The notes below the pieces were generated by a model. The model ran no database searches. It had not been told where the DNA came from and saw nothing but the letters and a program-made list of their open reading frames with translations. A program made the position numbers and the translations under genes. This document shows positions 617-19,583 of a DNA stretch of 45,675 nt, piece after piece; position 1 is the first letter of the stretch, and every line of letters starts with the position of its first letter. This DNA is from Alphaproteobacteria bacterium. GTDB lineage: Bacteria > Pseudomonadota > Alphaproteobacteria > JAJFIK01. Where the stretch lies: the NCBI GenBank assembly GCA_021774965.1, contig JAJFIL010000172.1, forward strand, positions 1 through 45,675, written 5' to 3'.

Positions 617-635
617 GTGGTACCCCAGTGGTACC
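617..635. repeat. Left-arm direct repeats GTGGTACC-CCA-GTGGTACC of island 1
   Basis: Two GTGGTACC copies start at 617 and 628, an 11-bp period. The same 19 bp recurs exactly at 11016-11034, near the other end of the island. Placement inside both att copies and helical-turn spacing fit integrase arm-type binding sites. Each copy also contains the palindrome GGTACC. The seen part is the repeat; the binding role is inference. Confidence 0.65.
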
Positions 636-747
636 AAGCCTAGCAGAACCCAACATATGCGATCCACCTTTCACGGGGCCTGTCGCCGCCTTAAGGGAAT
701 CAGTCCGGATTAATCCGAGCCAAGGGTGAGGTTTTTGGATAATTCGT

Positions 748-1926
748 GTGGAGATGAAAAAGGCTCCGCGAAAAATTCGAATTACTCAGGCGCATGTGGA
801 ACGTGTCCAAACCAAGGACGCGACCTTCATCGTGTGGGATACAGAAATCAAGGGGTTTGGCCTTCGGGTAACGCCAACTGGCCGCAAGAGCTATGTCCTC
901 AAGTATCGCTTGGGCACGGGCCGATCAGCCCAAGTCCGCAAGCCGACCCTCGGCCCTCACCCTGAAATGCTGTGCGGGGCCGCCAGAGAAATGGCTGCCA
1001 AATGGAAGCTGGACGCCTATGCTGGCAATGACCCATCCAAGGAACGACAAGACACCCGATCTGGGATGACCATGGGGGAGCTTTGGGATCGGCACCGGAC
1101 CATGCATGTGGACGTTAAGCTCAAACCACGGTCCGCCAAAGAGGCGGTTGATCAATGGGAACGCCTCATCAAACCACGCCTAGGTCGTGACCGTGTTCAG
1201 GACATCGGTGCTGTGGAGGTTCAGAGGCTGCACGCCGCCCTATCGGCCACCCCATATCAGGCCAACCGTGTCCTGGCCCTCCTGTCCATTCTCTTCAACA
1301 ATGCCGAGCGGTGGGGCTTGCGAATTCAGGGTTCCAACCCCTGTCGTTACATAGAGCGTTACCCTGAACGCCCCCGTGAAAGAGCCCTCAATTCGGATGA
1401 GGTTCGCCGCCTGATGGACGCGGTCGACCACTATGCGGTTGTCCATGAGAAGCTGGCCGATGTGGTGCGGCTCGCGCTGCTGACCGGCATGCGTCAATCA
1501 GAGATATTGAGCCTTGCCTACAGTGACGTTGATTTCATCAATTCTACGATCCGGCTGAAGGACAGCAAGACCGGTCCGCGTTCTGTCTTCGTGGGCCAGC
1601 AAGCCCTGTCATTGATTTCCCACCGGATGGATGATGCCTCTTCACAGTGGGTGTTTCCCGGCAAGACCAACGATGCGGCCATGAGCTGCCTGCCCAAGAT
1701 GTGGCGGAAGATAAGGAAACGGGCCGGTCTTGATGATGTGCGCTTTCATGACCTGCGGCACACCTTCGCCACTGTCGGTGCCCGCAGCGGCATTAGCGGG
1801 CCAATGCTCCAAAAGTTATTGGGTCACGCTCAGATTGCGACCACCGAAAGATATCTTCATCTCAACGGGGCGGAGCTGACCAAGGCCGCAGACGAGACGG
1901 CACGGGCGTTGTTTGAAATGCATTGA
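748..1926 (+). CDS. Tyrosine integrase of island 1 (DUF4102 / P4-type)
   Basis: This site-specific tyrosine recombinase should catalyse integration and excision of island 1 at tRNA-Arg. Residues about 13-95 form the N-terminal arm-binding DUF4102-like domain (GFGLRVTPTGRKSYVLKYR). Residues about 105-210 look like the core-binding SAM-like domain. The catalytic domain follows, with R249 (TGMRQSEI), K274, H334-x-x-R337 (HDLRH), H360 (LLGH) and Y369 all present, so it appears active. At 392 aa it is typical of the family. The start is uncertain: GTG at 748 or ATG at 754, the GGAG at 750-753 being too close to the ATG. It lies 272 bp inside att copy 1, downstream of the paired GTGGTACC sites. It shares NPCR-x2-ERYPER and other stretches with the integrase at 11287, so the two are homologous. 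Confidence 0.93.
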   Translation: MEMKKAPRKIRITQAHVERVQTKDATFIVWDTEIKGFGLRVTPTGRKSYVLKYRLGTGRSAQVRKPTLGPHPEMLCGAAREMAAKWKLDAYAGNDPSKERQDTRSGMTMGELWDRHRTMHVDVKLKPRSAKEAVDQWERLIKPRLGRDRVQDIGAVEVQRLHAALSATPYQANRVLALLSILFNNAERWGLRIQGSNPCRYIERYPERPRERALNSDEVRRLMDAVDHYAVVHEKLADVVRLALLTGMRQSEILSLAYSDVDFINSTIRLKDSKTGPRSVFVGQQALSLISHRMDDASSQWVFPGKTNDAAMSCLPKMWRKIRKRAGLDDVRFHDLRHTFATVGARSGISGPMLQKLLGHAQIATTERYLHLNGAELTKAADETARALFEMH

Positions 1927-1950
1927 AAGATCGGGAGTACTCTCGAAGTT

Positions 1951-1967
1951 GAGGTCATGAGAGGTCA
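1951..1967. repeat. Direct repeat GAGGTCA, 10-bp period
   Basis: GAGGTCA occurs at 1951-1957 and 1961-1967, directly downstream of the integrase stop. It matches the core of the inverted repeat at 551-601 on the other side of the gene. Possible binding sites for an island-encoded regulator; function inferred only. Confidence 0.4.
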
Positions 1968-2087
1968 TTGGGGGGCGCGAACACAGGATACAAATTTGGG
2001 GGGTTTACAAAAAAAATTACCTGTCATATCTCCGCCGCCCCGGGTGCGATTTTGCTATTGGAGTTTGCATCGGAATAGGAGAGAGCC

Positions 2088-2699
2088 GTGAGCGTGCCCG
2101 CTGATTTTGAAACTGACATCGACGATCTTGCCGAAAAAATGAACATGGCTAAGCAGGTTCTGACCGCCAAGCACATGATTCAGAGGTTTGAATATTGTAT
2201 AGAGGAAATTGGTGGCCCGGGTTTCTGTGCCTACGATGAAGGCATGTCTATTTTTGAATTCAGGAATCGGACAAAAAGGAAGTTCGATTACTGTAAGAGC
2301 CTTCCGCCCGAGCTCTTGAGGGCGGTGTTGAGTGCCCCTCGTTCGATCATTGATCGTGACGTGGAAACAGGATTCAAGCACTTGGTCGCGAGTGAGCTTG
2401 GCGAGCTGGTCATTCCGAAGGGTAGAAAGAAAACCACTCGTGGCCAGAAACCTGTCATAAACGAAAATCTAATCAGGCAACTCTTGGAAGAACTTTTCGG
2501 GAACGACCGCGACAATGAGTTAACTTCCCGTCTCAACGTTCATCTTGCTTTGGAAGAGCTCGTCGAGCACGAAAAGATCTATAGTGGCAAGGTGAGGGTG
2601 CCCAAGCTAAGCTGGCTCGAGAAGAAGTTCGGTAAGAAATGGCAGGACCTGGATCTTGAAATCAAAAAGAACAAGGCCGCTAACAAGGCGCAACAATAG
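2088..2699 (+). CDS. Unknown 203-aa protein downstream of integrase 1
   Basis: I do not recognise this protein. It starts at GTG 2088 behind a good AGGAGAG ribosome site and runs 203 residues. It is soluble and highly charged, with a Lys-rich tail (residues about 175-203, ending KNKAANKAQQ). The middle (GRKKTTRGQKPVINENLI) is basic and could touch nucleic acid. No transmembrane segment or known catalytic motif is visible. Its position between integrase and AlpA-like HTH matches that of the unknown 305-aa gene in island 2, although I see no clear sequence similarity between them. A role in island maintenance or in controlling integration is a guess from position only. Confidence 0.7.
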   Translation: MSVPADFETDIDDLAEKMNMAKQVLTAKHMIQRFEYCIEEIGGPGFCAYDEGMSIFEFRNRTKRKFDYCKSLPPELLRAVLSAPRSIIDRDVETGFKHLVASELGELVIPKGRKKTTRGQKPVINENLIRQLLEELFGNDRDNELTSRLNVHLALEELVEHEKIYSGKVRVPKLSWLEKKFGKKWQDLDLEIKKNKAANKAQQ

Positions 2700-2776
2700 G
2701 CCTCCAATACCCCCGATCTGATAATTCGTACGCGAGAATACGGGAGCATCTTTGAGACCCGTTCCATACTCCTTTA

Positions 2777-2801
2777 CGCCACTTGAATTCTTCAGGTGGC
2801 G
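2777..2801. repeat. Stem-loop between unknown gene and AlpA-like gene
   Basis: Arms of 11 bp (CGCCACTTGAA / TTCAGGTGGCG) with a 3-nt loop pair fully apart from one G-U position. The stem ends 3 nt before the AGGAG (2805-2809) of the next gene, so as RNA it could affect its translation. It is the first of five hairpins in this 1.2-kb cassette. Confidence 0.6.
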
Positions 2802-2815
2802 AACAGGAGAAGCAA

Positions 2816-3022
2816 GTGCCTCGTAAAGACGAACGCGCAAACGACCAAACGCCAATGCTCACGACGAAAGAAGTGGCTGACGACCTTCAGGTCGATCAAC
2901 GCACGGTCCGCCGCTGGCGCGAGAAGAACATGGGGCCAAGTTGGCACCAGTTAGACCGGCTCGTTCGTTACTCACGAGAAGACTACGACTCCTGGAAAGC
3001 CGGGCTGCGTCGCAGCTCATAG
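2816..3022 (+). CDS. AlpA/excisionase-like helix-turn-helix protein
   Basis: This 68-aa protein contains a MerR/AlpA-type winged HTH: LTTKEVADDLQVDQRTVRRW followed by a wing and the LVRYSREDYDSW tail typical of the HTH_17 excisionase family. Such proteins bind DNA and in P4-like elements act as excisionase and/or as activator of the integrase gene. I chose GTG 2816 because AGGAG lies at 2805-2809; an in-frame upstream TTG at 2783 lies inside the hairpin. Hairpins lie on both sides (2777-2801, 3055-3076). Island 2 has an equivalent at 13680, so the two islands share this layout. Confidence 0.8.
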   Translation: MPRKDERANDQTPMLTTKEVADDLQVDQRTVRRWREKNMGPSWHQLDRLVRYSREDYDSWKAGLRRSS

Positions 3023-3054
3023 AAAGTCAGCAAGAAGTTGTTGACCGGAAATCG

Positions 3055-3076
3055 CACGGCCAAAGTTTTGGCCGTG
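3055..3076. repeat. Perfect 10-bp inverted repeat in the gap after the AlpA-like gene
   Basis: CACGGCCAAA and TTTGGCCGTG are exact reverse complements separated by GT. In RNA this would fold as a GC-rich stem with an A/U-rich loop. No T-run follows, so it is a weak candidate for an intrinsic terminator; an operator or RNA-processing element is equally possible. Confidence 0.55.
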
Positions 3077-3114
3077 TGGGAAAGATTGAAACCCGACGAG
3101 AATAGGAGTCCCTA

Positions 3115-3474
3115 ATGTCGGAAATTTATGAGCAGAGCGCCCTAATGCAGGCGCAGAATTGTCGTCAGGCCCACCAAGAAGATCGGGCGGATTCTGATTT
3201 TACGATGATGAAGGTCAAAGGCGTGCTTTCAGTTGACCTCAATGGAAAGGCCATTGTCAGCATTCCCTCGATTGACCTCGAAGTGATGAACATCTCAATG
3301 GCTGTGGCTGGTCCTTTCACGGACGAACCAACAGACCTGATTGGCTATCGCTTGCATGATCGTACGGGGGCTGAAGAGAACGATCCTGCGGAAGCGAGTG
3401 ACATATCCACGATTGATATAGAACTCGATCTGTTGGTCGAACATCTCACACCTTTGGCGGGCTCGGCTGAATAG
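3115..3474 (+). CDS. Unknown 119-aa acidic protein
   Basis: I do not recognise the family. ATG 3115 follows AGGAG with normal spacing. The N-terminal 30 residues are polar (Gln/Asp/Glu rich). Residues about 31-65 alternate hydrophobic and polar (VKGVLSVDLNGKAIVSIPSI), which suggests beta strands. The protein is acidic and has no membrane segment or visible active-site motif. It sits in the hairpin-separated cassette before the HUH endonuclease and is probably transcribed with it. A structural or ssDNA-binding role would fit such a cassette but is not shown by the sequence. Confidence 0.65.
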   Translation: MSEIYEQSALMQAQNCRQAHQEDRADSDFTMMKVKGVLSVDLNGKAIVSIPSIDLEVMNISMAVAGPFTDEPTDLIGYRLHDRTGAEENDPAEASDISTIDIELDLLVEHLTPLAGSAE

Positions 3475-3489
3475 GCCCGTAAGTAGGAA

Positions 3490-3557
3490 CCTACAGGCTG
3501 GTGCTTGGTCATCAGCCTGTAGGCGACAAGTGGCCGGGATGAATGGAAATCCGGCCA
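3490..3557. repeat. Two tandem stem-loops between small cassette genes
   Basis: The first hairpin has perfect 11-bp arms, CCTACAGGCTG (3490-3500) and CAGCCTGTAGG (3513-3523). The second has arms TGGCCGGGAT (3531-3540) and ATCCGGCCA (3549-3557) with one bulged G. They fill most of the gap between the 3115 and 3594 genes. No T-run follows either. Confidence 0.6.
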
Positions 3558-3593
3558 AGCAACGCACCAACTTACAAAGAGAGGAGATTGGCA

Positions 3594-3944
3594 ATGACGA
3601 ATCAAACGCACCCCAAAGATCTGTCTGAAATGGTCCAACATGCGAAAGTCGCAATCGACCGGAGGAATTTTAGCATCAAAGGGCCGAAGGTTCGTGTAAA
3701 GACCAAATTGGTTGAAAGCATGGACCGGGTGTTCGAAGTGAGGCTCCCGGAGCTTTACTTTGACGTCATGGCTACGCGGGCGGTGGCTGCACCGGTCTTT
3801 GAAGGCGATACGCTCGCTGATAACCGGGGCCTCCGCTTCAAACCCATGAAGAGGAAGTGGGGGATGGACCCTCCCGCCTATACCAACTCGCACGACTTTG
3901 AAATCGCGTTTGCGTTGTCCATCTATGACCTGAAGGTCCTCTAG
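3594..3944 (+). CDS. Unknown 116-aa basic protein
   Basis: I do not recognise the family. ATG 3594 is chosen because GAGAGGAG lies just upstream; the frame is open back to 3543 but without a better site. The protein is rich in Lys/Arg in the first half (AKVAIDRRNFSIKGPKVRVKTKL) and ends in a hydrophobic strand (FEIAFALSIYDLKVL). There is no signal peptide or transmembrane segment. It lies between tandem hairpins and a terminator-like hairpin, directly upstream of the HUH endonuclease gene, in the same cassette. Confidence 0.65.
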   Translation: MTNQTHPKDLSEMVQHAKVAIDRRNFSIKGPKVRVKTKLVESMDRVFEVRLPELYFDVMATRAVAAPVFEGDTLADNRGLRFKPMKRKWGMDPPAYTNSHDFEIAFALSIYDLKVL

Positions 3945-3960
3945 CCGCCTGTGAACAACT

Positions 3961-3998
3961 GGCCCGCCATGACGGTTATTGTTCGGGCGGGCCCTTTT
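3961..3998 (+). terminator. Terminator-like hairpin after the 3594 gene
   Basis: GGCCCGCC (3961-3968) pairs exactly with GGCGGGCC (3986-3993), followed by TTTT at 3995-3998. The GC-rich stem and short T-run fit a factor-independent terminator, although the loop is long (17 nt). It would partly separate the small genes from the endonuclease gene. Confidence 0.6.
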
Positions 3999-4026
3999 CA
4001 CTTCTTCAAAACTAAGGGCATGAAAA

Positions 4027-4539
4027 ATGTCGAACCTTCCACCCCCGTCGCCTTGCCTGCAGATACCTAGCCGAAGCGATTATGCCGAAATGATAGAAAG
4101 TCATCCAGGCACGAAATTTGTCACGCTGACGACGAACGCGACGAATCCCAATTCTCCGGCCTCGCGCTGGACTCTTTCAGACCAACCAGCGATACGGAAG
4201 ATTATGCGAACCTATCTTCGAAGGTGGGACGCATTGATGAACGGTTACCTGCTGGGTGATAACTGGCGGACGTCCGCTTCCCGCCTTCAGGCGATTGGCG
4301 TGATTGAAAAGCCGGGGTCAAATCCGCACTGGCATCTCAAAGTCACACCCCCGCCTCCGCCCATACCCATGTTGTTCGGGGCTGCCGCAAGAAAAGCTTG
4401 GGGACAAATCATACTTGCTGGGACGGCCCACGTGCAGCCGATCCGTCGGCAGGGCGTAATTTCCAGTTACATGGCCAAAGAGCTGTCGCCCAAAAATTTC
4501 AACGACAGAATTATCTTTGTCCCTTTTGACGTGAAGTGA
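4027..4539 (+). CDS. Small HUH-type endonuclease (Rep-like)
   Basis: This 170-aa protein has the three motifs of HUH/rolling-circle Rep nucleases in order. Motif 1 is FVTLTT (31-36), matching the FLTLT-type strand. Motif 2 is the metal-binding HWH at 101-103, preceded by E94. Motif 3 is a Tyr with Lys three residues later, Y148-x-x-K151 (SYMAKE). Proteins of this class nick one DNA strand and stay joined to it through the Tyr, starting rolling-circle replication or ssDNA transposition. ATG 4027 follows AAGGG at good spacing. No helicase domain is attached, so it is a minimal nuclease. The surrounding hairpins could be substrates, though their sequences differ. The assignment is by motif; the exact family (plasmid, inovirus or satellite Rep) is unclear. 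Confidence 0.7.
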   Translation: MSNLPPPSPCLQIPSRSDYAEMIESHPGTKFVTLTTNATNPNSPASRWTLSDQPAIRKIMRTYLRRWDALMNGYLLGDNWRTSASRLQAIGVIEKPGSNPHWHLKVTPPPPPIPMLFGAAARKAWGQIILAGTAHVQPIRRQGVISSYMAKELSPKNFNDRIIFVPFDVK

Positions 4540-4823
4540 CCTATATATGTAGTGGAAGACCAAGGACGTGCCCCGGATGAACCCGTTTTCCAGCTACAGC
4601 ACTCGCGTCGCCAGACGGCTCCCTCGTGGAACCGTAATTTATGGTCATGCCCAAACACCATCTCCGAGTCTTCGCAATCTACATTCAGACCAACGTTGAA
4701 CAGTTTTGATCAACAGTCCAGCAAACCATGGCAACGAAGTGGCAACAACCCAAGATTTCCATTTACATTATCACAACCTTAGATTATACTACCGTCTGTG
4801 TACGGAATTGTCCAAGGTGGCTC
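4540..4823. other. Gap between HUH endonuclease and small recombinase
   Basis: These 284 bases hold no convincing gene. A frame from 4552 to 4782 lacks a ribosome site and family signal, and the recombinase frame is open back to ATG 4728 without a ribosome site. The stretch is AT-richer towards its right end and could hold the recombinase promoter or a replication origin, but no clear iterons or long stems are visible. Confidence 0.4.
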
Positions 4824-5387
4824 ATGACAAAGGCTCGACCCATAACAGATGTTGAATTTCGCCGCGTGATGGATATCGCGTCATCGACGCGGTATCCGAC
4901 CCGTAATCGGCTCTGCCTGCTGCTTTCGGCTCGTGCGGGGATGCGAGTGGGCGAAATCATGGGGTTGGATCTTGGCGACGTCTTCGACAATGACCGAGCT
5001 GAAGTCCGCGACAGGATCTATCTGGAAAGCTCCCGTGTTAAATGGGGCCATGCCCGCGAAATCCACCTGAACCGATCCGTTCAACGCGCGATCAGCGGCT
5101 ATCTCGCCCATAGGGGCGTCGCCAGTGGCCCGCTCATTCTGACACAGTCGGAAACCCGCTACGGGCGAACTGGCCTTGTTGGCCTCTTTAAAGGGCTCTA
5201 CGCCCGCGCCGGGATCGATACCTCGTCTCACGCGGGCCGTGCTTTGTTCATCACCTCGCTTGCCGACAAGGGAATTTCCATCCGCATTATTCAAAAAGCG
5301 GTCGGCCACAGATCACTTGCGGCCACCAACGCCTATCTGGATGCCCGCCCACAGGAGGTCGCCGCCGCCGTGGGGCTCCTTTCATAG
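4824..5387 (+). CDS. Single-domain tyrosine recombinase
   Basis: The 187-aa protein is essentially only the catalytic domain of the tyrosine recombinase/integrase family. All signature residues are visible: R41 (AGMRVGEI), K73, H136-x-x-R139 (HAGR), H162 (VGHRS) and Y171 (NAYLD). It lacks both arm-binding and core-binding domains found in the two large integrases here. Such short recombinases (about 190 aa) occur as free-standing genes on proteobacterial plasmids and islands, where they may resolve multimers or move short segments. ATG 4824 follows AAGGTGG at a short distance; an in-frame ATG at 4728 is possible. It follows the HUH endonuclease gene in the same direction, so the two may form one replication/resolution unit. 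Confidence 0.85.
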   Translation: MTKARPITDVEFRRVMDIASSTRYPTRNRLCLLLSARAGMRVGEIMGLDLGDVFDNDRAEVRDRIYLESSRVKWGHAREIHLNRSVQRAISGYLAHRGVASGPLILTQSETRYGRTGLVGLFKGLYARAGIDTSSHAGRALFITSLADKGISIRIIQKAVGHRSLAATNAYLDARPQEVAAAVGLLS

Positions 5388-5519
5388 GAGCGAATTGATC
5401 AGTGGAGCCCGCAGCCACAATATTGCCTCAATCCCGACACCCGTGCACCACAGTTCCTCACTTGATTAAAGTTGCCTTCGGTTTTTGGCGGCGCGAATAA
5501 TTGAAAGGACAATCCCATA

Positions 5520-6320
5520 TTGGCGAATGACGAAACAACACCATCATTACAAATGGAAGAGCCCATCATTTACGCGGTGGGCGATATCCACGGCTACCTG
5601 AGCGCCTTCTATGATGTCATCGACCGCGCTCATGCCAGCCACCAACGGAACTATCCTGACCGGCCTGCATGGCTGGTCACGATGGGTGATCACATCGACC
5701 GGGGACCCCAATCCGCCGACCTGATTGATCTGCTCATCAACGGGGGTGGGCCGCTGGCTTGGTTCGAGAAAAAGATTCACCTGCGCGGCAATCACGAACA
5801 GATGATGCTGGACGCCCTCAACGACACGGATGGGGATGCCTTCCGCTACTGGTCACAGAACGGGGCGAAAGAGACACTGGCCTCATATGAGATTGAAATG
5901 CCGGATCGGGCTGACGCGGATTTTGATATGGCTGATCCGCTGGGAGAGGTGAGAGGGGACATTCCGACCGAACACGTATATTGGCTCAACTCCCTGCCAC
6001 TCACATTCGCCCATGACCCTTTCCTGTTCGTTCATGCGGGCATTGTCCCTGGCGTGCCGCTGGACGAACAGGCCGACAAGGACCTCATGTGGATCAGGAA
6101 GGAATTCCTGGCCTCGGAGCTGGATCACGGTTATCGCGTCGTTCACGGTCACACGCCGGAAGACGACAAGCCCGTCTTTCTGCCGAACCGCATCAATGTG
6201 GATACCGGCATCTATACCGATGAGGGGATGTTGACTTGTGCGGCCCTTGATGTGGCAGTGGGCGATGAGCTTGTGTTCCCATTCTTTCAGGTAACACCCG
6301 GAGCGCCTTCTTGGGATTGA
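5520..6320 (+). CDS. PPP-family metallophosphatase (Ser/Thr phosphatase-like)
   Basis: This 266-aa protein carries the two-metal calcineurin-type phosphatase signature: GDIHG (21-25), GDHIDRG (56-62), RGNHE (89-93) and a later HGH (VVHGHTPED). These residues bind Mn/Fe-type metals and hydrolyse phosphoester bonds. The family includes bacterial protein phosphatases and ApaH; the target cannot be told from sequence. GDHIDRG replaces the commoner GDYIDRG. The TTG start at 5520 follows AAAGGAC; ATG 5553 (MEEPIIYAVGDIHG) is an alternative that still keeps all motifs. It has no signal peptide. It is cargo of island 1 between the small recombinase and merB, and no link to mercury resistance is evident. 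Confidence 0.88.
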   Translation: MANDETTPSLQMEEPIIYAVGDIHGYLSAFYDVIDRAHASHQRNYPDRPAWLVTMGDHIDRGPQSADLIDLLINGGGPLAWFEKKIHLRGNHEQMMLDALNDTDGDAFRYWSQNGAKETLASYEIEMPDRADADFDMADPLGEVRGDIPTEHVYWLNSLPLTFAHDPFLFVHAGIVPGVPLDEQADKDLMWIRKEFLASELDHGYRVVHGHTPEDDKPVFLPNRINVDTGIYTDEGMLTCAALDVAVGDELVFPFFQVTPGAPSWD

Positions 6321-6378
6321 GCGTCCTCGCTATCTCTCATACCTCAACATAATCGCCGCAGAATACAATTTTTGTTGC

Positions 6379-7062: not shown

Positions 7063-7106
7063 CGCTCGATTTCTCTTTTGTCATTCAAACAAATCCAATA
7101 AGCATG

Positions 7107-7137
7107 ATACTAACTCCTGTAGTTGATACAGGTGCAA
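7107..7137 (-). promoter_or_regulatory. MerR-type promoter/operator for merB
   Basis: On the minus strand, TTGCAC (-35, 7137-7132) and TAGTAT (-10, 7112-7107) are separated by 19 bp. That is the over-long spacer typical of MerR-activated promoters. Inside the spacer lies the dyad CCTGTA-N5-TACAGG (7116-7132). The merR ribosome site AGGAG follows at once on the plus strand, so MerR bound here could also repress its own gene. Confidence 0.75.
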
Positions 7138-7147
7138 GGAGAAAGAA

Positions 7148-7564: not shown

Positions 7565-7616
7565 TGTCACGAATGCGTGAAACGAGGGAGTTATTGATTT
7601 CAACGCAAATATGTTC

Positions 7617-7647
7617 TTGACCCTGTACAAGCTACAGGATGCACACT
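7617..7647 (+). promoter_or_regulatory. MerR-type promoter/operator for merTPA
   Basis: TTGACC (7617-7622) and CACACT (7642-7647) are spaced by 19 bp, and the dyad CCTGTA-N5-TACAGG occupies 7622-7638. The half-sites are identical to those in front of merB. The -10 hexamer is a poor match, consistent with a promoter that depends on the activator. Confidence 0.75.
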
Positions 7648-7703
7648 CCTGTCAGGTTGGCTCTTGAGCTGACGCTCCGCAATCAAAAGGTCCAAGGGTC
7701 ATT

Positions 7704-11015: not shown

Positions 11016-11034
11016 GTGGTACCCCAGTGGTACC
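11016..11034. repeat. Right-arm direct repeats GTGGTACC-CCA-GTGGTACC of island 1
   Basis: These 19 bases are an exact copy of 617-635, in the same orientation, 48 bp inside att copy 2. A matching pair at each end of the same island supports a role as integrase arm-type sites. Confidence 0.65.
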
Positions 11035-11082
11035 TAAAGCCGATTTCAGATTTTGCGGAATTGACCTAAGCCATTGAAATAA

Positions 11083-11132
11083 ATGGCGCACCCGGAGCGA
11101 TTCGAACGCCCGACCCCCAGATTCGTAGTCTG
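11083..11132. repeat. att copy 2: junction of islands 1 and 2
   Basis: The first 47 bp match att copy 1 and the tRNA; 50 bp (to 11132) match the tRNA-Arg 3' half at 19647-19696. After that the sequence departs from the tRNA, so no complete tRNA exists here. It is the right boundary of island 1 and the left boundary of island 2. Confidence 0.9.
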
Positions 11133-11250
11133 TGTCCAAACCTTATTCCCAATTGCTCGCAATGATGATCATTTGTGATTTATTATATAAAACAGGTGCT
11201 TATAGCGTATCTGGTTGACCCCAGAGTCACCCTCTAATACTCTCCTTGCT

Positions 11251-11268
11251 GCTTACCCGTTGCTTACC
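11251..11268. repeat. Left-arm direct repeats GCTTACC of island 2
   Basis: GCTTACC occurs at 11251-11257 and 11262-11268, an 11-bp period, between att copy 2 and the integrase. The same pair occurs at 19566-19583 near the other island end with a different 4-nt spacer, so the 7-mer and spacing rather than the whole block are kept. Confidence 0.65.
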
Positions 11269-11286
11269 CCAGCATAGGAGCCGACC

Positions 11287-12651
11287 ATGGCGAAAATCAC
11301 CAAGCGATATATTGAACAGCTAAAGCCGACCGGATCGGACCTTGTTGTGTGGGATGACGGCCTGCCCGGATTTGGCCTGCGCATGAAACCGTCGGGCTAT
11401 GCCTCTTTCATCGTTCAGTACAGAAATCGCTTGGGCCGGTCCCGGCGTATCACTCTTGGCTCAGTCCAGGTGGTGACCCCCAAGGCAGCGCGAGGAAAGG
11501 CCAAGGAGCTTCTTGAGAAGGCGAGGCTTGGTTGTGACCCGAAAGACGAAAGAGACCTTGAGAAGGGCAGCCTCACGGTTTCAGAGCTATCTGACATCTA
11601 CCTCAAGCGTCACGCCAACACCAAAAAGAAGGCGTCGAGTGCGGCTGAAGACAAGCGGAACCTGAAAAATCATGTTCGGAGCAGGTTGGGCAGTCGCAAG
11701 GTGCTGGAAATATCCCGCTCCGACATTGTGAAGCTGCACCATGACATGCGCAAAACCCCCGGCGCGGCAAACAGGGTGTTGTCCCTTCTCAGCAAGATAT
11801 TCAATTTGGCCGAACGCTGGGGATACAGGACCGATGGAACGAACCCTTGTCGCCATGTGGAACGCTATCCAGAGAGAAAAATGGAGCGGTTTCTGTCTCA
11901 GCATGAATTGGCAAGCCTTGGTGCGGTGATGGCGCGGGCAGAGAAGAATAAAACCGAAAATGAATTTGTAATTGCCGCCATTCGCCTCTTGATCCTGACC
12001 GGGGCAAGGGTCTCGGAAATCCTTGGCCTAAAGTGGAGCGATGTCGATTTTGAAAAATCCGTTCTTCGTCTGCCAGATTCCAAGACCGGCGCAAAAGTGA
12101 TCTATCTTTCTGCACCTGCTTTGGAGGTTTTGAGCAATCTAGAAAGCGACCCTGAGTCTAAATGGGTGATACAGGGAAGGGACGAGGGGAAACACCTGGT
12201 CAACCTCAGAAAGCCTTGGTATCGACTGCGAAAGGAAGCCACGGTTGAGCTTTGGCGCACATCGGAACAGCAAGCCGTTGCTGGTCTGGTTGTTACTCTG
12301 GCCGACAAGCTGGGAACAATCCCTACCTTTGACCAGTGCATCGAGTTTGCGACCTCAAATGACGCGTCCAAAATGGAGCTACCTACAGGCCTATCGGATG
12401 TGCGGCTGCATGACCTTCGACACTCCTACGCTTCCATGGGGGCTGCTAGCGGCCTTTCCTTGCCGATGATTGGGGCATTGCTGGGGCATACCCAGGCTTC
12501 GACAACAAGCCGATATGCGCATCTGGCAGCCGATCCATTGCATCAAGCAACCAACTCCATTGGTGAGCGGATCGGGGCAGCTATGAATGCTGAGTCTGAG
12601 CTGGATGGTTCAATTGTCGAATTGAAGCGGAGTAAGCCAAATGGCAAATGA
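11287..12651 (+). CDS. Tyrosine integrase of island 2 (DUF4102 / P4-type)
   Basis: This 454-aa integrase should recombine island 2 at tRNA-Arg. The N-terminal arm-binding domain (GFGLRMKPSGYASFIVQYR) and core-binding region are followed by a catalytic domain with R241 (TGARVSEI), K266, H375-x-x-R378 (HDLRH), H401 (LLGH) and Y410. It is homologous to the island 1 integrase but has an insertion of about 55 residues (about 315-370) between the K-containing strand and the HDLRH box, so the two were not copied from each other recently. ATG 11287 follows AGGAG. Its end overlaps the next gene by 11 bp. Confidence 0.93.
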   Translation: MAKITKRYIEQLKPTGSDLVVWDDGLPGFGLRMKPSGYASFIVQYRNRLGRSRRITLGSVQVVTPKAARGKAKELLEKARLGCDPKDERDLEKGSLTVSELSDIYLKRHANTKKKASSAAEDKRNLKNHVRSRLGSRKVLEISRSDIVKLHHDMRKTPGAANRVLSLLSKIFNLAERWGYRTDGTNPCRHVERYPERKMERFLSQHELASLGAVMARAEKNKTENEFVIAAIRLLILTGARVSEILGLKWSDVDFEKSVLRLPDSKTGAKVIYLSAPALEVLSNLESDPESKWVIQGRDEGKHLVNLRKPWYRLRKEATVELWRTSEQQAVAGLVVTLADKLGTIPTFDQCIEFATSNDASKMELPTGLSDVRLHDLRHSYASMGAASGLSLPMIGALLGHTQASTTSRYAHLAADPLHQATNSIGERIGAAMNAESELDGSIVELKRSKPNGK

Positions 12652-13558: not shown

Positions 13559-13679
13559 CAGCTATCAACTCCGAAGAATTCAATTTCGAATTTGCCTTTT
13601 TTCGGAGCAGGTTTAGGTGACAAGTCAATCCATGTGCCCATAGTAGGAAGCCAACGCAACTCGGATAAGAGAATCGCAG

Positions 13680-13931
13680 ATGGCTTCACTAGATACTATC
13701 CCAGAAACAATTGACCCGGCAGAGCTTGGGCTTCTCAATGAGCATGAGACGGCTTTCAGGCTAGGCCTGAGCGTTAAGACGCTTCGCCGGTGGCGTTGGG
13801 AAGGCAGCGGTGTTCCATACGTCAAGGTCGGTCGAGCGGTCCGCTATGACCCGCAAGACATTGGCGAATACATCCAGCAGAACCGGGTGGATAAGCGAAT
13901 GGAATCCGATCCCGACAACCCAGAAACCTAA
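13680..13931 (+). CDS. AlpA/excisionase-like helix-turn-helix protein
   Basis: The 83-aa protein has an HTH_17/AlpA-type domain: LLNEHETAFRLGLSVKTLRRW, a wing, then VGRAVRYDPQDIGEYI, the usual end of this family. It should bind DNA and may act as excisionase or as integrase regulator for island 2. ATG 13680 follows a weak AGAGAA site. It is the counterpart of the gene at 2816 in island 1, with a different sequence but the same place in the layout. Confidence 0.85.
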   Translation: MASLDTIPETIDPAELGLLNEHETAFRLGLSVKTLRRWRWEGSGVPYVKVGRAVRYDPQDIGEYIQQNRVDKRMESDPDNPET

Positions 13932-14167
13932 ACCAACCAAAAGCATTCAATGCCGCTTGTGTGAAGGGCTCGATACCTTGGCGCACAAGCGGAAACCTCC
14001 GGTACCAAGGGGGAGCTGGCATACACCGGAAGGGCACCGCGATGGAGACGCCCAGGGCCAGCCGGCAACCGTTCATATTGCCGTTAAGGAACTCCAATCC
14101 GAAGGTCAAGGCGGTATGCCTTCGGGCCCATTAACGAGGCACGCTCCATACGAGCTGTGAATATCGT
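13932..14167. other. Gap after the AlpA-like gene, possible relic
   Basis: A frame running through 13933-14160 reads IQCRLCEGLDTLAHKRKPP onward but has no ribosome site, begins inside the AlpA-like gene in another frame, and matches nothing I know. The composition is more GC-rich than the next genes. I see no promoter or RNA gene. It may be a gene relic. Confidence 0.35.
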
Positions 14168-14632
14168 TTGGGTGCGGAATCATCTTCTGTCTTGTACAGG
14201 GGATGGTTCCGCTTGCCCAAAAACTTCGGCTTCTCCACCAAGCTATGCTTAGGAAGGAATGAGAAATTGGCAAAATCTGGTGACGTAAGAATATTCAAAA
14301 TGAGGTTGTTCGGTGGCAGCAATTTGGAGGCCTATCGAAAGCAATATGCTGATCGGACAAATTTCCTCGAACTAAGGCATAAAAAGGTAATTCCCTCGAA
14401 CCCTTCAATCGGTCGCCCAAATCCCACGGTGATTCATGAGACCTTCTCAATTCCTGCCTGCGACGTGCTGAACTTCACAGAAAAGCTTTTAAGAGCGGAG
14501 GAAATTCTTCGGATTGAAGGTTACGACGAGAAATTTCACTCAAGCAAAATCAATCGAAAAAAAAATGATCAGGGTCGCAGATTAGGAGAGAAAGTAGCAG
14601 AGAAACAAAGGGCAAAAGAGAAGGCTAATTAG
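14168..14632 (+). CDS. Unknown basic protein
   Basis: I do not recognise this protein. The frame gives 154 residues from TTG 14168, but the start is doubtful: TTG 14267 has AAGGA at good spacing and ATG 14300 (MRLFGG) is also in frame. The sequence is basic, with a central segment NFLELRHKKVIPSNPSIGRPNP and a very Lys/Arg/Glu-rich tail (EKVAEKQRAKEKAN). No membrane segment or enzymatic motif is visible. The C-terminal two thirds is the better-supported part. It stands alone between the AlpA-like gene and the divergent membrane pair. Confidence 0.5.
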   Translation: MGAESSSVLYRGWFRLPKNFGFSTKLCLGRNEKLAKSGDVRIFKMRLFGGSNLEAYRKQYADRTNFLELRHKKVIPSNPSIGRPNPTVIHETFSIPACDVLNFTEKLLRAEEILRIEGYDEKFHSSKINRKKNDQGRRLGEKVAEKQRAKEKAN

Positions 14633-14835
14633 GGCGAAGTTGGGCGACTTGAGCGTTGGCAGAATGATAACAAATGATAATTTCCTCAAACCGCTCGATG
14701 GTAAGAATTGTTAAGGATTTGAAGCCGGAAGAGATACCGGGGGCACCCCCTGAGCCGGTCCAGCCGTTATACGCAATTGCCGGTCTCTATTCCGGGCTGT
14801 TTCAAATTGATGCTTCTCCACACTTTGAGGCGTTC

Positions 14836-15045
14836 CTAGAAAAGCCAGCCAAAGATTATGAGGGCGGCAATCAGGACGATGCCAATGGCAATCAAATAGA
14901 GAAATATGGATCCCAGCGCCAAAATAAAACCAACAACGCTTTCAACAGCAACAATGAAGAGGATGGCTGCAATAGAAATGATAGCAACAAAAACGCTGAC
15001 TACGGCTCTGACAACAGCGGCAATGATTTCCAACAGGTTTCTCAT
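14836..15045 (-). CDS. Small membrane protein (69 aa)
   Basis: The protein consists almost entirely of two hydrophobic helices (about 6-32 and 36-65; VRAVVSVFVAIISIAAILF, LYLIAIGIVLIAALIIFGWL). ATG 15045 is preceded by AAAGGA at good spacing. It lies 47 bp downstream of another membrane gene on the same strand, so the two are probably cotranscribed. I do not recognise the family. The opposite strand has a long open frame over both genes, but its Asn/Asp/Lys/Ser-rich translation is what antisense of hydrophobic helices produces. Confidence 0.55.
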   Translation of the reverse strand: MRNLLEIIAAVVRAVVSVFVAIISIAAILFIVAVESVVGFILALGSIFLYLIAIGIVLIAALIIFGWLF

Positions 15046-15092
15046 GGGAAAGGTCCTTTGTGGAATTTCAATCATCCAAGCGACGATGCCAC

Positions 15093-15455
15093 TCACAGCC
15101 AAACGAAGCTCATCAAAATCACGGTGAAAAGAACGGCAAAGAGCAAGACAGCACCACTGATGCCCCTCCAATACAATTTTGCCATCGCAAAGGCATGCGA
15201 AAAACTTATCACGGGTGTTCCCGTAACAATCCCTACGAAGAAGACGGTCGGAAAGAGCATGAGTGCAAAAAGTGGAGCAAAGAAGGGCAGTAGCAAGAGA
15301 AGGACGATAGCAGAAGTCGCGTTCTCCGGACTGAGATTCAATCCGACGATTGCCGCCAAAAGCGCGAGAGAATAGGCAGCGATGCCTGCATGTAGAACAA
15401 TTCTGCCTGGCTTATTTGCGACTTTCCTAAATGGTTTCACTTGCACACCATCCAA
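15093..15455 (-). CDS. Small membrane protein (120 aa)
   Basis: Three hydrophobic segments are visible (about 20-40, 46-76 and 95-118), including LLLLLPFFAPLFALMLFPTVFF. A basic N-terminal stretch (VKPFRKVANKPGR) would stay in the cytosol. The start is uncertain: TTG 15455 with a weak GAAAG site is used, and no in-frame ATG is available before the first helix. It lies upstream of the 69-aa membrane gene. The family is unknown to me. Confidence 0.5.
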   Translation of the reverse strand: MDGVQVKPFRKVANKPGRIVLHAGIAAYSLALLAAIVGLNLSPENATSAIVLLLLLPFFAPLFALMLFPTVFFVGIVTGTPVISFSHAFAMAKLYWRGISGAVLLFAVLFTVILMSFVWL

Positions 15456-15561
15456 TCACTTTCTTTCGTCGGATCACTTTTGTTAGAGCCCACACCTTAT
15501 GGTATACAGGGTACTCGATAGCCGCATAATTTGAAAACGGTTGGCGAATATGGAGGGTGAT

Positions 15562-15984
15562 ATGAGGCACGTTATTGTGATCGCTATACTCATTGGAGTA
15601 TTTGCAAGCACTGCATTGGCTCAGCACGGTTCCAATCGATCTTCTATTTCCGAACAGCGACTTTCTGAACTTGCGTTGGGCGATATGAATTTGAGTTTTT
15701 GCTATGAGATTTTGGATATGCTCGATGCGGGGGAGGCCAGAGAACGCGCAGTTTACATATACTCACGCGGATACATTTGGGGTAGGTGGCGGGAATCCGA
15801 CATGGAAGGAGGGGATTTCCGAGACGGGGGGCGGGCGGAAGCTTCCATATTCAGCGCATTTGGAACTGAGGAAATACTCCTCGCCAGCCTTCGTCTGTAC
15901 TGCTTACAGAATCCTGAGGACCCGTTCTACAGGGCTATGGATGACTTCTATGAGAACAATGAACCGGACGTTTCCAATGAATAG
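15562..15984 (+). CDS. Exported protein of unknown function (140 aa)
   Basis: ATG 15562 follows GGAGG (15551-15555) and opens a clear signal peptide, MRHVIVIAILIGVFASTALAQ, with an A-x-A cleavage site before QHG. The mature part is acidic, about 120 residues, with two Cys (SFCYEILDML and RLYCLQNP) that could form a disulfide in the periplasm. It contains a Tyr/Trp-rich segment (YIYSRGYIWGRWRE). I do not recognise the family. It stands between the leftward membrane pair and the MGG-GSGR family gene. Confidence 0.7.
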   Translation: MRHVIVIAILIGVFASTALAQHGSNRSSISEQRLSELALGDMNLSFCYEILDMLDAGEARERAVYIYSRGYIWGRWRESDMEGGDFRDGGRAEASIFSAFGTEEILLASLRLYCLQNPEDPFYRAMDDFYENNEPDVSNE

Positions 15985-16039
15985 GTGCCCATTACAATAC
16001 GAATTTCCCTATTGATTTCGTTTAAAACAGGAGGGGCGA

Positions 16040-16669
16040 ATGGGTGGGTTTGGTAGCGGGCGTTATGGCGCCTTTGGTGGAAAAAACCTCACCAACGAGT
16101 ATCGCTCTATAGATATTCGCCGTTGGAAACGGGACGGGTTGCTTTCTCCGAGTCAAAACTTCGGCTGGCAATGGTCTCGCGATGGGGAAGTTGTCGCTTC
16201 AATCAATGTAAAGAGCTGCCTTGGAAGTGTTGTGCTCAGTTATCGGCAACGATGCGGCGGTGAAGACTGGAAAGACGAAAAATACACCGTCGAGCTTGAT
16301 TGGTCGCCCTGCAATTATGGCGGTGAACGCCCTTGGTTTACTTGTCCTGTAAAAGGATGTTACGAGCGTGTTGCCATCCTCTATGGCGGCACAATTTTCG
16401 CCTGTCGTCATTGCTATCGGTTGGCATATCCAAGTCAGAACGAAGCACCCGATGATCGCGCTGCAAGGCGAGCGGACAAGATACGAAATCGATTAGGCTG
16501 GGAACCCGGAATCCTAAATCCGAAAGGGTGGAAAAAGCCCAAAGGCATGCACTGGAACACATTCGAGCGGTTGGATAGAGAGCATGATGCCCTGGTCGCG
16601 GTCTCCATGGCAGGGATGGTTTCGCGGCTTAGTAAGATTGATCTTTCCCCCAAATCTACCCAGCAATGA
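16040..16669 (+). CDS. MGG-GSGR family zinc-ribbon protein
   Basis: The protein starts MGGFGSGRYG and has the core DIRRWKRDGLLSPSQNFGWQWSRDGE, then four Cys in a putative zinc ribbon, TCPVKGC at about 103-109 and FACRHCYRLAYPSQ at about 122-135, and an Arg-rich helix (RAARRADKIRNRLG). I recall this family as a common uncharacterised protein in proteobacterial accessory regions. The Cys pairs suggest metal-stabilised nucleic acid binding. ATG 16040 follows GGAGGGG, a strong site. It is 209 aa, a full-length member. It has no evident partner next to it. Confidence 0.8.
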   Translation: MGGFGSGRYGAFGGKNLTNEYRSIDIRRWKRDGLLSPSQNFGWQWSRDGEVVASINVKSCLGSVVLSYRQRCGGEDWKDEKYTVELDWSPCNYGGERPWFTCPVKGCYERVAILYGGTIFACRHCYRLAYPSQNEAPDDRAARRADKIRNRLGWEPGILNPKGWKKPKGMHWNTFERLDREHDALVAVSMAGMVSRLSKIDLSPKSTQQ

Positions 16670-16870
16670 GAAAAAAATTCCTCGAATTGTATTTGTCTTG
16701 GTATTTCTGAATCCTTCCATCGGGCTCATCGGTTTGGCTCGCGTGGGTTGAGAAACTCATATTCCTAGCCATTTATGGGGTTGATTGACCAGTTAGACTC
16801 GCCAAATCGTTGCTTTCCTGCAATTGTTATCTGCATATTCACCACTTCTAAACTGCGAGTGTTGACTTAT

Positions 16871-17422
16871 ATGTCAATTGAGGATGATGTTAAGAAAGCC
16901 GTAGCTCGTGGTGATCTTCATTACCTTCCGATGATGGACCCAAGTGATCCTATTGAGAGATGCATTGTCGTTCATAGTGATATTATGAGCCAATTTGTGG
17001 GCCCTTGGGATGGTGTGAAACACGAGGAACGAGTTTTTGAATTACGAGCGGATCTAGAAGACTTTGTGAAGGGTGAAAGGTTGTCCCTCTCATTTACGCC
17101 CAGAAAACACAAGGATGCATACATGGGCCTCCTAGAACCCAAAGATCAAGGCACTTGGGAAATCCGAGCAAGAGATCCAAGTCCAGGAATTAGGGTTTTC
17201 GGCAAGTTTGCAAAGGAGGATCTTTTCGTCGCTTTTGGGTGGCGGCCCCGACATGTGATCCTCGAATGGTCCGAGAAGTTGCCAATGGCATTGAGCCCGC
17301 GAGGATGGAGATTGGAAATAAATCGGTGCACTACTCTTTGGGAAGAGATACTTGGCGGGCACGAGCCTATAACTGGAGACAAACTCAGTGACTACATCAA
17401 AGAAAACGCCGTTGTTGTCTGA
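16871..17422 (+). CDS. Unknown 183-aa protein, possible RelE/HigB-like fold
   Basis: I chose ATG 16871 (MSIEDDVKKAV); the frame is open to 16775 but the extension is unlike the rest. Neither start has a strong ribosome site. The central part, TWEIRARDPSPGIRVFGKFA followed by DLFVAFGWRPR, has the strand pattern of RelE/HigB-type proteins (W-x-hR...Rhh..f), and a C-terminal helix follows. The next gene encodes an Xre-type HTH protein and overlaps by 35 bp, the usual arrangement of toxin then Xre antitoxin in higBA-like pairs. The protein is longer than typical HigB (about 100 aa). The toxin reading is an inference; no catalytic residues can be assigned. Confidence 0.5.
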   Translation: MSIEDDVKKAVARGDLHYLPMMDPSDPIERCIVVHSDIMSQFVGPWDGVKHEERVFELRADLEDFVKGERLSLSFTPRKHKDAYMGLLEPKDQGTWEIRARDPSPGIRVFGKFAKEDLFVAFGWRPRHVILEWSEKLPMALSPRGWRLEINRCTTLWEEILGGHEPITGDKLSDYIKENAVVV

Positions 17423-17873
17423 ACTTGAGTCGAGTGATCCATTGTCACCCGGCGTGCTGGCTTATTTGGCTCGGCGCGTTAGGAACAGCCACTTTCAATA
17501 TTTGTTGAAAAAATTTGATGAGGCTGAAAGGGGGCAGGGGCTTACGAAGAGCAAACTTGCAGAGCGGATTGGGCAGCGTAGAGATCGAATCTCTCGCTTG
17601 CTTTCGTCGCCAGGGAACCTCACTTTGGATACATACACGCATTTGTTGGTCGGAATTGCTGGCGAAGAGCCAATCCCGTGTTCTGAACCAATTCTCGAGC
17701 GAGGGACTAGAAATATGCAACAGGCTGACTTAATCGGGACAGCCACATCCACTACTTCCAGCTCAACTACCATTGTTGATGTTTGCATTGGTGATAGTAG
17801 ATTAAGGGCTGTGCCAGGCCCTACTGAAACGACATCTAGCCCAATTAAGACTATTTTCATTGAGGCCCAATGA
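17388..17873 (+). CDS. Xre-type helix-turn-helix protein
   Basis: The 161-aa protein contains an HTH at about 48-75 (GLTKSKLAERIGQRRDRISR) followed by LLSSPGNLTLDTYTHLL, the end of an Xre/Cro domain. The C-terminal 70 residues are Ser/Thr-rich and of low complexity (TATSTTSSSTTIV). GTG 17388 lies within the preceding gene (35-bp overlap), and the stop overlaps the next gene's ATG, so the three genes should be translated together. It probably regulates the module and may serve as antitoxin to the first gene. Confidence 0.75.
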   Translation: MTTSKKTPLLSELESSDPLSPGVLAYLARRVRNSHFQYLLKKFDEAERGQGLTKSKLAERIGQRRDRISRLLSSPGNLTLDTYTHLLVGIAGEEPIPCSEPILERGTRNMQQADLIGTATSTTSSSTTIVDVCIGDSRLRAVPGPTETTSSPIKTIFIEAQ

Positions 17874-18334
17874 GTCCATCGACCGATATACTTGAGCTAC
17901 AGAATCTCATTTTCTGCGACGATGCCCGTAAGGAAGTCAGCGGGAAAGAGATACTCATTGGCATATATTCTGGAGACATAGTTCTCCCCAAATTACCGGA
18001 TACTATGGGTTTGGTTCTTTGGACCACCATGGTCGTGCGCGAGCCAGGCGATCACAAAGTAGAGTTTCGAATTGATCTTCCGGGGGGAGGCAATTCAATT
18101 GAAATTGAAGGATTCATACAGGCGGCAGCCAAGGACGGGATAGCTGCCATGCCGACCCCCAAGCTGCCGATCACGCTTATCGATGAAGGAGAACTGGTCG
18201 TGTCTTGGAGAATTGATGATCAAGAATGGGTGGAACTAAGAAGGAAGCCAATCAAGTTAGCTGAGGGTGGCACTCGGCTCGCGCCGGAAACCCAGGGAGA
18301 AGTCAGTGAAGATGGGCAGCCCGCAATAGCGTAA
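17870..18334 (+). CDS. DUF6941-like protein
   Basis: The N-terminal motif ENLIFCDDARKEVSGKEILIGIYSGDI-like arrangement (here LQNLIFCDDARKEVSGKE, then LIGIYSGDIVLPKLP) matches the pattern I know from the DUF6941 family. The rest alternates beta-type strands (HKVEFRIDLPGG, ELVVSWRIDDQEW), suggesting a beta sandwich. The function of the family is not known to me. The 154-aa length is normal. Its ATG overlaps the stop of the Xre gene as ATGA, so it is the last gene of a tightly coupled three-gene unit. Pairing with an Xre regulator on a mobile island is suggestive of a TA-like or defence-like module but does not prove it. Confidence 0.65.
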   Translation: MSPSTDILELQNLIFCDDARKEVSGKEILIGIYSGDIVLPKLPDTMGLVLWTTMVVREPGDHKVEFRIDLPGGGNSIEIEGFIQAAAKDGIAAMPTPKLPITLIDEGELVVSWRIDDQEWVELRRKPIKLAEGGTRLAPETQGEVSEDGQPAIA

Positions 18335-18340
18335 GCGCCC

Positions 18341-18676
18341 CTACCCGCACCAATCCGCCTGCCGCCCCGTCCATTCCACTGCCAGGCCTTCCTCAACAAG
18401 CATTTCCCCCACGTCTTGGCCCTCATGGGTAAGCAGCACTAAAGGCCTGCCATAGCCGCCAGTTCGTCCCGTGAATTGGACCTCAACCCCGTCAGCAACA
18501 ATCTCCTCAAGTCGCGCTGTTGCCAGCTCGCCCAGCATTCTCTCAGCCAGACATTCAGGGCGGTAGGTTTCAGGTGTGTCTATGTTTTCAATGCGAAGGC
18601 GCTCCCCGTCTTGGCGCACTGTGTCGCCATCAATAACTGTTATGAGTGACGCAGCCAGGAAAAACTCGAGGATCAT
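18341..18676 (-). CDS. SNase-fold (thermonuclease-like) protein
   Basis: This 111-aa protein is a single staphylococcal-nuclease domain. It shows VIDGDTV (Ca-binding Asp and following DT), RLRIENIDTPET (Arg35-, Asp40- and Glu43-type residues of SNase) and GGYGRPLV (the second catalytic Arg region). The residues needed for Ca-dependent phosphodiester hydrolysis therefore look present. ATG 18676 is preferred because the upstream frame overlaps the repeat region of the neighbouring lipoprotein gene and reads as low-quality sequence. There is no convincing signal peptide, though the first residues are hydrophobic. It lies 37 bp after the lipoprotein gene and is likely cotranscribed. Confidence 0.8.
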   Translation of the reverse strand: MILEFFLAASLITVIDGDTVRQDGERLRIENIDTPETYRPECLAERMLGELATARLEEIVADGVEVQFTGRTGGYGRPLVLLTHEGQDVGEMLVEEGLAVEWTGRQADWCG

Positions 18677-18713
18677 TGGCTTGGCCTTTGCGAAGGAAAG
18701 AATTGGATTTGGA

Positions 18714-19400
18714 TTAGTTGCAAAAAAGCGTTTCTCCAATGTAGCGACAGACGGTCCCATCGCTGAAAAATGTCGCATCGCCAATCCGCCGCGCCACGGT
18801 TCCATCCGATGAGAAAGTTGCGCCGCCAATATCCCGCGTGATAACTCCATCTGAGTAAAATGTGGCCCCACCAATATCCCTTGCGACTGTTCCATCAGAG
18901 AAGAATGTTGCGTCGCCAATCTGCATTGCGGTGCTGCCGTCGGAGCAAAATACAGCTTCCCCAATTAAATTGCATGCCCCGGAGCTGGGGGCAGGCCAGA
19001 TAGGGTTGTTACTAGACGTCGCTGAGTTTAGCGGGGTGGCGGCAGAAGGATCATAGGTGGCTGTGGGTATGAAGGTAACCGGGTGGGGATTGGGTGCATA
19101 ACCAGGAGGAGCAATATCCCCATTGTTCTCTCTGGCAATACGGAGCGTGGTTTGTGCTATTTGGCGTTGGACCCGGATTGTTTCCTCAATATATCTTGCT
19201 TCATGCTCTGGAGACTCCCAATCTAATGCACGTATAGTCTCCACTATGGCAGCGATGCTTTCTTCTGATCGTGATAGAATGTCGGCGTATTGTTGTTCAT
19301 TCTTTGCCCGACGCGCGGCGTCGCGTTCTGTATCGGAGAGGCCGGTTGAGGAACAGCCGGTCAAAAGCAAGACGACAATGATCCCAATAAGTCGGAGCAT
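18714..19400 (-). CDS. Lipoprotein with 15-residue IG-SDG repeats
   Basis: ATG 19400 follows GGAGGTGG. A lipoprotein signal (MLRLIGIIVVLLLTGC) puts the lipidated Cys at residue 16. A charged helical region follows (about 23-92), then a Pro-rich linker. The C-terminal third is built of exact 15-residue repeats starting at 146, 161, 176, 191, 206 and 221, with consensus IG-x-A-T-F-x-S-D-G-T-x-x-R-x and the last unit ending IGETLFCN. Cys at the first and last units (C152, C218, C227) may close the array. Short proteins ending in such IG-x-T-x-FCN repeats occur in many proteobacteria without known function. I infer an outer-membrane or periplasmic anchored repeat protein. Confidence 0.8.
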   Translation of the reverse strand: MLRLIGIIVVLLLTGCSSTGLSDTERDAARRAKNEQQYADILSRSEESIAAIVETIRALDWESPEHEARYIEETIRVQRQIAQTTLRIARENNGDIAPPGYAPNPHPVTFIPTATYDPSAATPLNSATSSNNPIWPAPSSGACNLIGEAVFCSDGSTAMQIGDATFFSDGTVARDIGGATFYSDGVITRDIGGATFSSDGTVARRIGDATFFSDGTVCRYIGETLFCN

Positions 19401-19565
19401 TTTCCACCTCCATGCGATGTGTGTCGCACAATGCACCTAGAACGGGTTTCTGGCAATGGCATCCAGTTTTGAAATCGGCTGGAAGGAACCAAGTCTATAC
19501 GCTCTCGTGCAACAATTGCTGCGGGGTGCGTTCCTGGTTCTTCGGATGACCTAATAGCCAATCCT

Positions 19566-19583
19566 GCTTACCTATGGCTTACC
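19566..19583. repeat. Right-arm direct repeats GCTTACC of island 2
   Basis: GCTTACC at 19566-19572 and 19577-19583 repeats with an 11-bp period, 64 bp from the att copy in tRNA-Arg. It matches the pair at 11251-11268 near the left end. These are probably integrase arm-type sites of island 2. Otherwise 19401-19647 holds no gene. Confidence 0.65.

Follow-up and report, generated by a model that had tools for sequence, protein, structure and literature searches.

How might two mobile islands that sit in one tRNA gene, bounded by the same attachment (att) core, be told apart by their integrases? The question is raised by the 45,675-nucleotide stretch analyzed here (contig JAJFIL010000172.1 of the alphaproteobacterial assembly GCA_021774965.1; its full length is called the window), in which, judging from the sequence, positions 428-19648 are two side-by-side insertions within a single tRNA-Arg(ACG) gene, each edged by a tRNA-derived core. 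The intact tRNA-Arg(ACG) at 19648..19724 on the minus strand, identified with ARAGORN, is the integration target, and its 3' half (19647-19696) forms the right core. The left core (428..475, plus strand) corresponds to the 3' half of tRNA-Arg-ACG at the junction between the chromosome and island 1 and is identical over 48 bp to 11082-11129, part of the middle core (11082..11132, plus strand), which doubles as island-1 attR and island-2 attL. A sequence-only reading had proposed that both islands share one att core, and the 3.87-Mb genome (97% complete, 319 contigs) indeed contains exactly three copies, at 432, 11086, and 19650. An unoccupied site exists in the same-genus genome G001, where an intact tRNA-Arg(ACG) joins the left flank (window 316-475) to the right flank without interruption. 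With direct repeats of the tRNA 3' end, an int gene at one end, and this empty site, the islands belong to the tRNA-targeting P4/SXT-type (DUF4102) genomic islands.

The features most relevant to the question are pairs of short direct repeats with an exact 11-bp period at both ends of each island. In island 1, GTGGTACC occurs on the plus strand at 617 and 628 and again at 11016 and 11027; the proximal pair (617..635) contains TGGTACC twice (618-624 and 629-635), and the distal pair (11016..11034) repeats the same 19 bp, so that the 19-mer GTGGTACCCCAGTGGTACC has an identical copy at each end. In island 2, GCTTACC is found on the same strand at 11251 and 11262, where the proximal unit extends to two copies of TGCTTACCC (11250..11269), and at 19566 and 19577, where the distal pair (19565..19584) reads TGCTTACC and GGCTTACC. 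All four pairs reported by the sequence-only reading are therefore present, and they exceed chance: at the same composition, a perfect 7-bp pair with period 11 is expected in ~1.4% of proximal and ~0.8% of distal gaps, and none of 20,000 shuffles had a pair in all four gaps, even before the same sequence was demanded at both ends. Frequent occurrence elsewhere in the genome would have spoken against a role at the island ends, but each exact pair is found only at the two ends of its own island, with the next best match at three mismatches for island 1 (palindromic self-overlaps apart) and all other matches at two or more mismatches for island 2.

Each island encodes a tyrosine integrase just inside its left end. 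Int1 (748..1926, plus strand; 392-aa numbering) has an Arm-DNA-bind_3/DUF4102 domain at residues 15-102 (PF13356, 2e-13) and a catalytic domain (PF00589, 9e-33), and Int2 (11287..12651, plus strand) has an Arm-DNA-bind_3/DUF4102 domain at residues 4-90 (PF13356) together with a tyrosine-recombinase domain; the two proteins are 39% identical. Both thus possess the N-terminal arm-binding domain required of a heterobivalent tyrosine integrase. We consider it very probable that each pair represents arm-type sites for the N-terminal DUF4102 domain of its own island's integrase within a lambda-like attP, as had been suggested by the sequence-only reading and as is borne out by the recurrence, placement, and base identity of such pairs in related islands.

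Relatives were drawn from whole genomes, a collection of 84,980 species genomes, and viral contigs, and the family tests were run at class level, as the window's order comprises only three genomes. Single-protein searches of the viral contigs gave no match for Int1 and only distant phage integrases for Int2. In a first round of 112 non-redundant DUF4102 integrase relatives, the 200 bp upstream of int contain a perfect repeat of at least 7 bp with period 11 in 75 cases; shuffled sequences gave 2.0 such cases and coding controls 2. Near-perfect pairs are found in about a dozen more. Period 10 is a minor variant (n = 17), period 12 is absent (n = 0), and the remaining periods are near background. 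Neighboring arm sites of phage lambda lie about one helical turn apart. The proximal pairs are located 19-137 bp ahead of the int start, and the same-strand downstream recurrence of an integrase's own pair was observed in 12 of the 75 cases, compared with 1.7 expected with swapped motifs. The search of relatives' island ends that had been proposed as a check showed, where enough downstream DNA was available, ~17 complete islands (~6-19 kb in size, with cores derived from tRNA Thr, Lys, Met, Ala, and others) in which the pair recurs near the other end, 41-96 bp before the second tRNA-derived core copy. Like the two islands of the window, they carry repeated sites on both arms that are distinct from the core.

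The geometry of these sites is also conserved. The core-to-proximal and distal-to-core distances are 141 and 47 bp in island 1 and 118 and 62 bp in island 2, in or next to the family ranges (~101-138 bp for the former). Distances from the T-loop to the pair cluster at ~134, 146, 158, and 169 bp, and hardly any values fall in the intervals that separate these clusters, as expected if the helix face matters. The clustering exceeds that of 2000 jittered controls even when the set was thinned to <55% identity. Sites resembling those of the integration host factor (IHF) occupy a nearly fixed position between the distal pair and the core, where 15 of 19 islands have one within one mismatch (1.8 expected) and seven have a perfect one (0.12 expected); of 71 proximal gaps, 32 contain such a site (9.8 expected). 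Most distal gaps, including those of both window islands, thus have the IHF-like bend sites between arms and core that characterize a lambda-like attP: TTTCAATGGCTTA (11067..11079, minus strand, one mismatch) lies between the distal pair and the core of island 1, and AATCAAACGATTA (19635..19647, plus strand, perfect consensus) has the same position in island 2. The island-1 site is kept in a same-genus relative of Int1 (L210 of genome G002, 60% identical), which targets tRNA-Arg(CCT) and in which one TGGTACC also holds its place.

Alignment of the pairs revealed a common site form, TGnTnnC, which includes TGCTTCC, TGCTACC, TGGTACC, TGGTAGC, TGGTTGC, TGTTACC, TGATTCC, and TGCTTAC. In this register, the Int1 site TGGTACC and the Int2 site TGCTTAC differ at bases 3, 5, and 6. 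The sequence-only reading had taken a shared TACC ending as a sign of related recognition, but this ending is out of register: base 8 varies among members with TGCTTAC (TGCTTACT, TGCTTACG), while T1, G2, T4, and C7 are constant. These four constant bases served as anchors for motif calling, and bases 3 and 6 were left out. For the 92 integrases with a clear pair, arm sequences diverge as the arm domains do (partial Mantel r = 0.35, 0 of 2000 permutations), and divergence of the catalytic domain has no such association after correction for the arm domain (r = 0.03, p = 0.33). The top-ranking column pairs of all were residue 44 with base 3 and residue 54 with base 6 (residues 44, 52, and 54 are given in Int2 numbering). 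K44 occurs with G3 in all 21 cases and Y44 with C3 in all 11, and Q44 is accompanied by C, A, or T, and never G, in 51 of 51. At the second position, W54 or F54 is found with G6 (16/16), K54 with C6 (15/15), and R54 with C (n = 52), A (n = 8), or G (n = 1).

These associations largely held in a hold-out set of 51 integrases with arm domains <75% identical, whose motifs were identified without regard to bases 3 and 6: K44 with G3 in 7/7, Q44 without G3 in 26/27, and the Y44 rule in 1/2; W54 with G6 in 4/4, K54 with C6 in 9/10, and R54 with C or A in 25/31. A tree built from the core-binding and catalytic domains shows many shifts of the residue states (at least 20 changes for K44), and independent pairs back all three rules (p = 0.004, 0.03, and 0.016), with weaker cross-controls. 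Mantel test, covariation, hold-out, and independent pairs agree that the site tracks the arm domain and not the catalytic domain. Both window integrases obey the rule, Int1 with K52, V63, and K65 (392-aa numbering; K, V, K) at TGGTACC and Int2 with Q44, S52, and R54 (Q, S, R) at TGCTTAC. The relative L340 (K44, K54) has a TGGTATC pair. In the AlphaFold model of the Int2 arm domain (pLDDT 88), which Foldseek matched to the arm-type domains of the HPI (3jtz) and HAI7 integrases (TMt 0.91 and 0.78), residue 44 lies on strand 39-46 and residues 52 and 54 on strand 52-59, the paired strands of one hairpin; residues 44 and 54 would face each other if the turn comprises 47-51.

Arm types vary independently of the tRNA target: a single tRNA-Met site is targeted by 36 integrases with about nine arm types, and TGGTACC and TGCTTCC are used at four and seven targets, respectively. 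A shared core with different arms is therefore normal for this family, and it is reasonable to assign separate arm addresses to the two islands. Tandem islands that share a core but differ in arm type were not found in any second genome, and independence was tested across genomes instead. Taken further, residues 44 and 54, modulated by residue 52, probably choose bases 3 and 6, so that arm addresses would be predictable and often switched independently of the target, and islands could stack without cross-excision; in this broader form, we hold the proposal with more reserve than the assignment of the pairs as arm-type sites.

Several observations weigh against the interpretation of the pairs as arm-type sites read by a residue-base rule. 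Approximately 20-25 of the 112 relatives, mostly from one Rhodobacterales/sphingomonad group with a core that does not resemble a tRNA, lack a clear pair, and a clear TGnTnnC pair is absent from 45 of 96 hold-out integrases. Good IHF matches are absent from the proximal gaps of both window islands (best, two to three mismatches), the sole F54 case in the hold-out carries A6 rather than G, R54 is loose (C, A, sometimes G), and base 5 is weakly predicted. The pairless close integrases, mostly from Rhodobacterales (L088, L090, L091, L095, L096, L098, L099, L104, L105, L106, L110, and L118), have a conserved core-like stretch, GTTCGTTGACT, shortly before int, and both the target and the arrangement of the arms may be different in this group. 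A further set (L351, L352, L370, L371, L375, and L150) is marked by two adjacent DUF4102 integrase genes in tandem and no clear TGnTnnC arm pair, and may represent a different two-integrase system.

Elsewhere in the window, other 7-bp pairs with period 11 turn up at a rate of about one per 7 kb, so that one pair alone says little; this background gives some room to the idea that the repeats are due to chance or are functionless remnants of terminal repeats. The shuffle and family statistics (75 relatives vs. 2) already refute it, and with TGGTACC kept in place at another tRNA in a relative with 60% identity, we give this idea practically no weight. The pairs could instead be operators through which a repressor or an excisionase controls the int promoter, with the far-end copy being incidental or serving another promoter. 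Such a role would fit the short distance between the proximal pairs and int, the HTH_17 proteins encoded by both islands, and the repression of their own promoters by the integrases of P4, KplE1, and ICEMlSym. Yet in the ~17 complete islands and both window islands, the same pair also accompanies the distal core at a long distance from int, its bases covary with the integrase arm domain, and its spacing from the core keeps the helical phase. As autorepression by the integrase is compatible with arm sites and not a substitute for them, we regard a purely regulatory function as very improbable.

A more serious objection accepts the arm sites and denies their insulation, in that Int1 and Int2 might each recognize the other's arm sites sufficiently to mobilize either island. 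Both sites belong to the TGnTnnC family and the integrases are moderately similar in sequence, but three of the seven site positions are different, including the two bases linked to the residues that distinguish the integrases (K/K vs. Q/R), and the combination of Q44 with G3 is found in 0 of 51 training cases and 1 of 27 hold-out cases. Such cross-recognition appears unlikely to us, yet it deserves far more attention than the operator hypothesis.

If the pairs are arm-type sites, a mechanism can be drawn by analogy with lambda (PMC4880445) and ICEMlSymR7A (PMC11963761). The attP of the excised circle would run from the distal pair through an IHF bend to the core (tRNA 3' half), followed by ~120-140 bp with a probable IHF bend, the proximal pair, and int. 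Two integrase protomers would occupy the neighboring sites of each arm, about one helical turn apart, and, following the lambda model, IHF would fold them against the core. The common core would be read by the core-binding and catalytic domains, with strand exchange by the tyrosine domains inside the tRNA-derived core, while the arm sites would be read by the beta-hairpin of the arm domain, where residues 44 and 54 would select bases 3 and 6 of TGnTnnC; this domain would bind the sites and contact the bases directly. One tRNA target could in this way hold two islands with different arm addresses, and the middle core, with the arms of island 1 on its left and those of island 2 on its right, would act as attR for Int1 and attL for Int2; each integrase may discriminate its own island via the arm sites, as originally suggested. 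By the same analogy, Int probably represses its own gene, because the proximal pairs are located just ahead of int. The small HTH_17 proteins of island 1 (2783..3022, plus strand; Pfam 4e-7) and island 2 (13680..13931, plus strand; 2e-8) are likely excisionases (recombination directionality factors).

Other features of the window concern island content and borders. Island 1 carries a mercury-resistance set (6379-9942) consisting of merB (6379-7062, minus strand), merR (7148-7564), merT (7704-8099), a merP-like HMA-domain protein (8033-8443), and a merA-like reductase (8512-9942), which is followed by a second, truncated oxidoreductase (10259-10648). It also encodes a second tyrosine recombinase without an arm-binding domain (4728-5387). 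At the distal end of island 2 (18341-19436), two open reading frames overlap; the product of one ends in a nuclease-like (SNase) domain, and the other is lipoprotein-like with repeated 'IGDATFFSDG' motifs. An open reading frame at 1-474 is open at the contig start, runs into the tRNA-derived core, and stops inside it; it resembles a serine recombinase by eye, its last 119 aa have no Pfam match, and the same layout is found by the intact tRNA in G001. Positions 1-430 were considered as a third tandem island, which was not supported, as G001 has the same stretch directly next to its intact tRNA.

Arm-type sites are usually identified element by element. A two-residue rule across this very large integrase family would help to delimit islands, to match an integrase to the island it can move, and to explain the presence of several islands on one tRNA target, and it makes the testable prediction that a two-residue exchange should shift the preferred arm site at two bases. 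Arm-type sites, their pairing, and the arm divergence among related integrases have already been published (PMC11963761, PMC3203893, PMC8074189, PMC8138268). The residue-base code appears to be the novel part, as no description of one for DUF4102 arm domains was found in the open-access literature (subscription papers, including the HPI structure paper, were outside the scope).

Among known systems, phage lambda provides the model of a two-armed attP with a heterobivalent integrase and IHF bends between arms and core (PMC4880445). The window islands resemble its attP (P1, P2, P'1-P'3; IHF sites H1, H2, and H') in having arm sites on either side of the core with IHF bends between them, but their arm domain has a P4/SXT-type DUF4102 fold with a different site, their target is a tRNA 3' half, and int lies beyond the long arm. 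A parallel in both host and target is ICEMlSymR7A, whose alphaproteobacterial P4-type integrase IntS acts at a tRNA, is encoded just downstream of attL, represses its own promoter, and needs all five arm sites for efficient integration (PMC11963761, PMC4334631). The consensus of these sites, TGKTGGTATC, includes a TGnTnnC site (TGGTATC), as in the window family; ICEMlSymR7A is, however, a single conjugative element with five sites, whereas the window has two tandem islands with two clear pairs each. In-silico work on cluster K mycobacteriophages and O. oeni prophages has described related integrases whose N-termini and arm repeats diverge, in some cases around a shared core (PMC3203893, PMC8074189), although these were not shown to be DUF4102 integrases and comprise few sequences without a tested residue-base rule. 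Finally, the arm-type binding domains of HPI and HAI7 (PDB 3jtz, 3ju0, 3rmp) share their fold with the predicted Int2 arm domain, but come from other (enterobacterial) islands and are 28% and 23% identical to it in the structural alignment.

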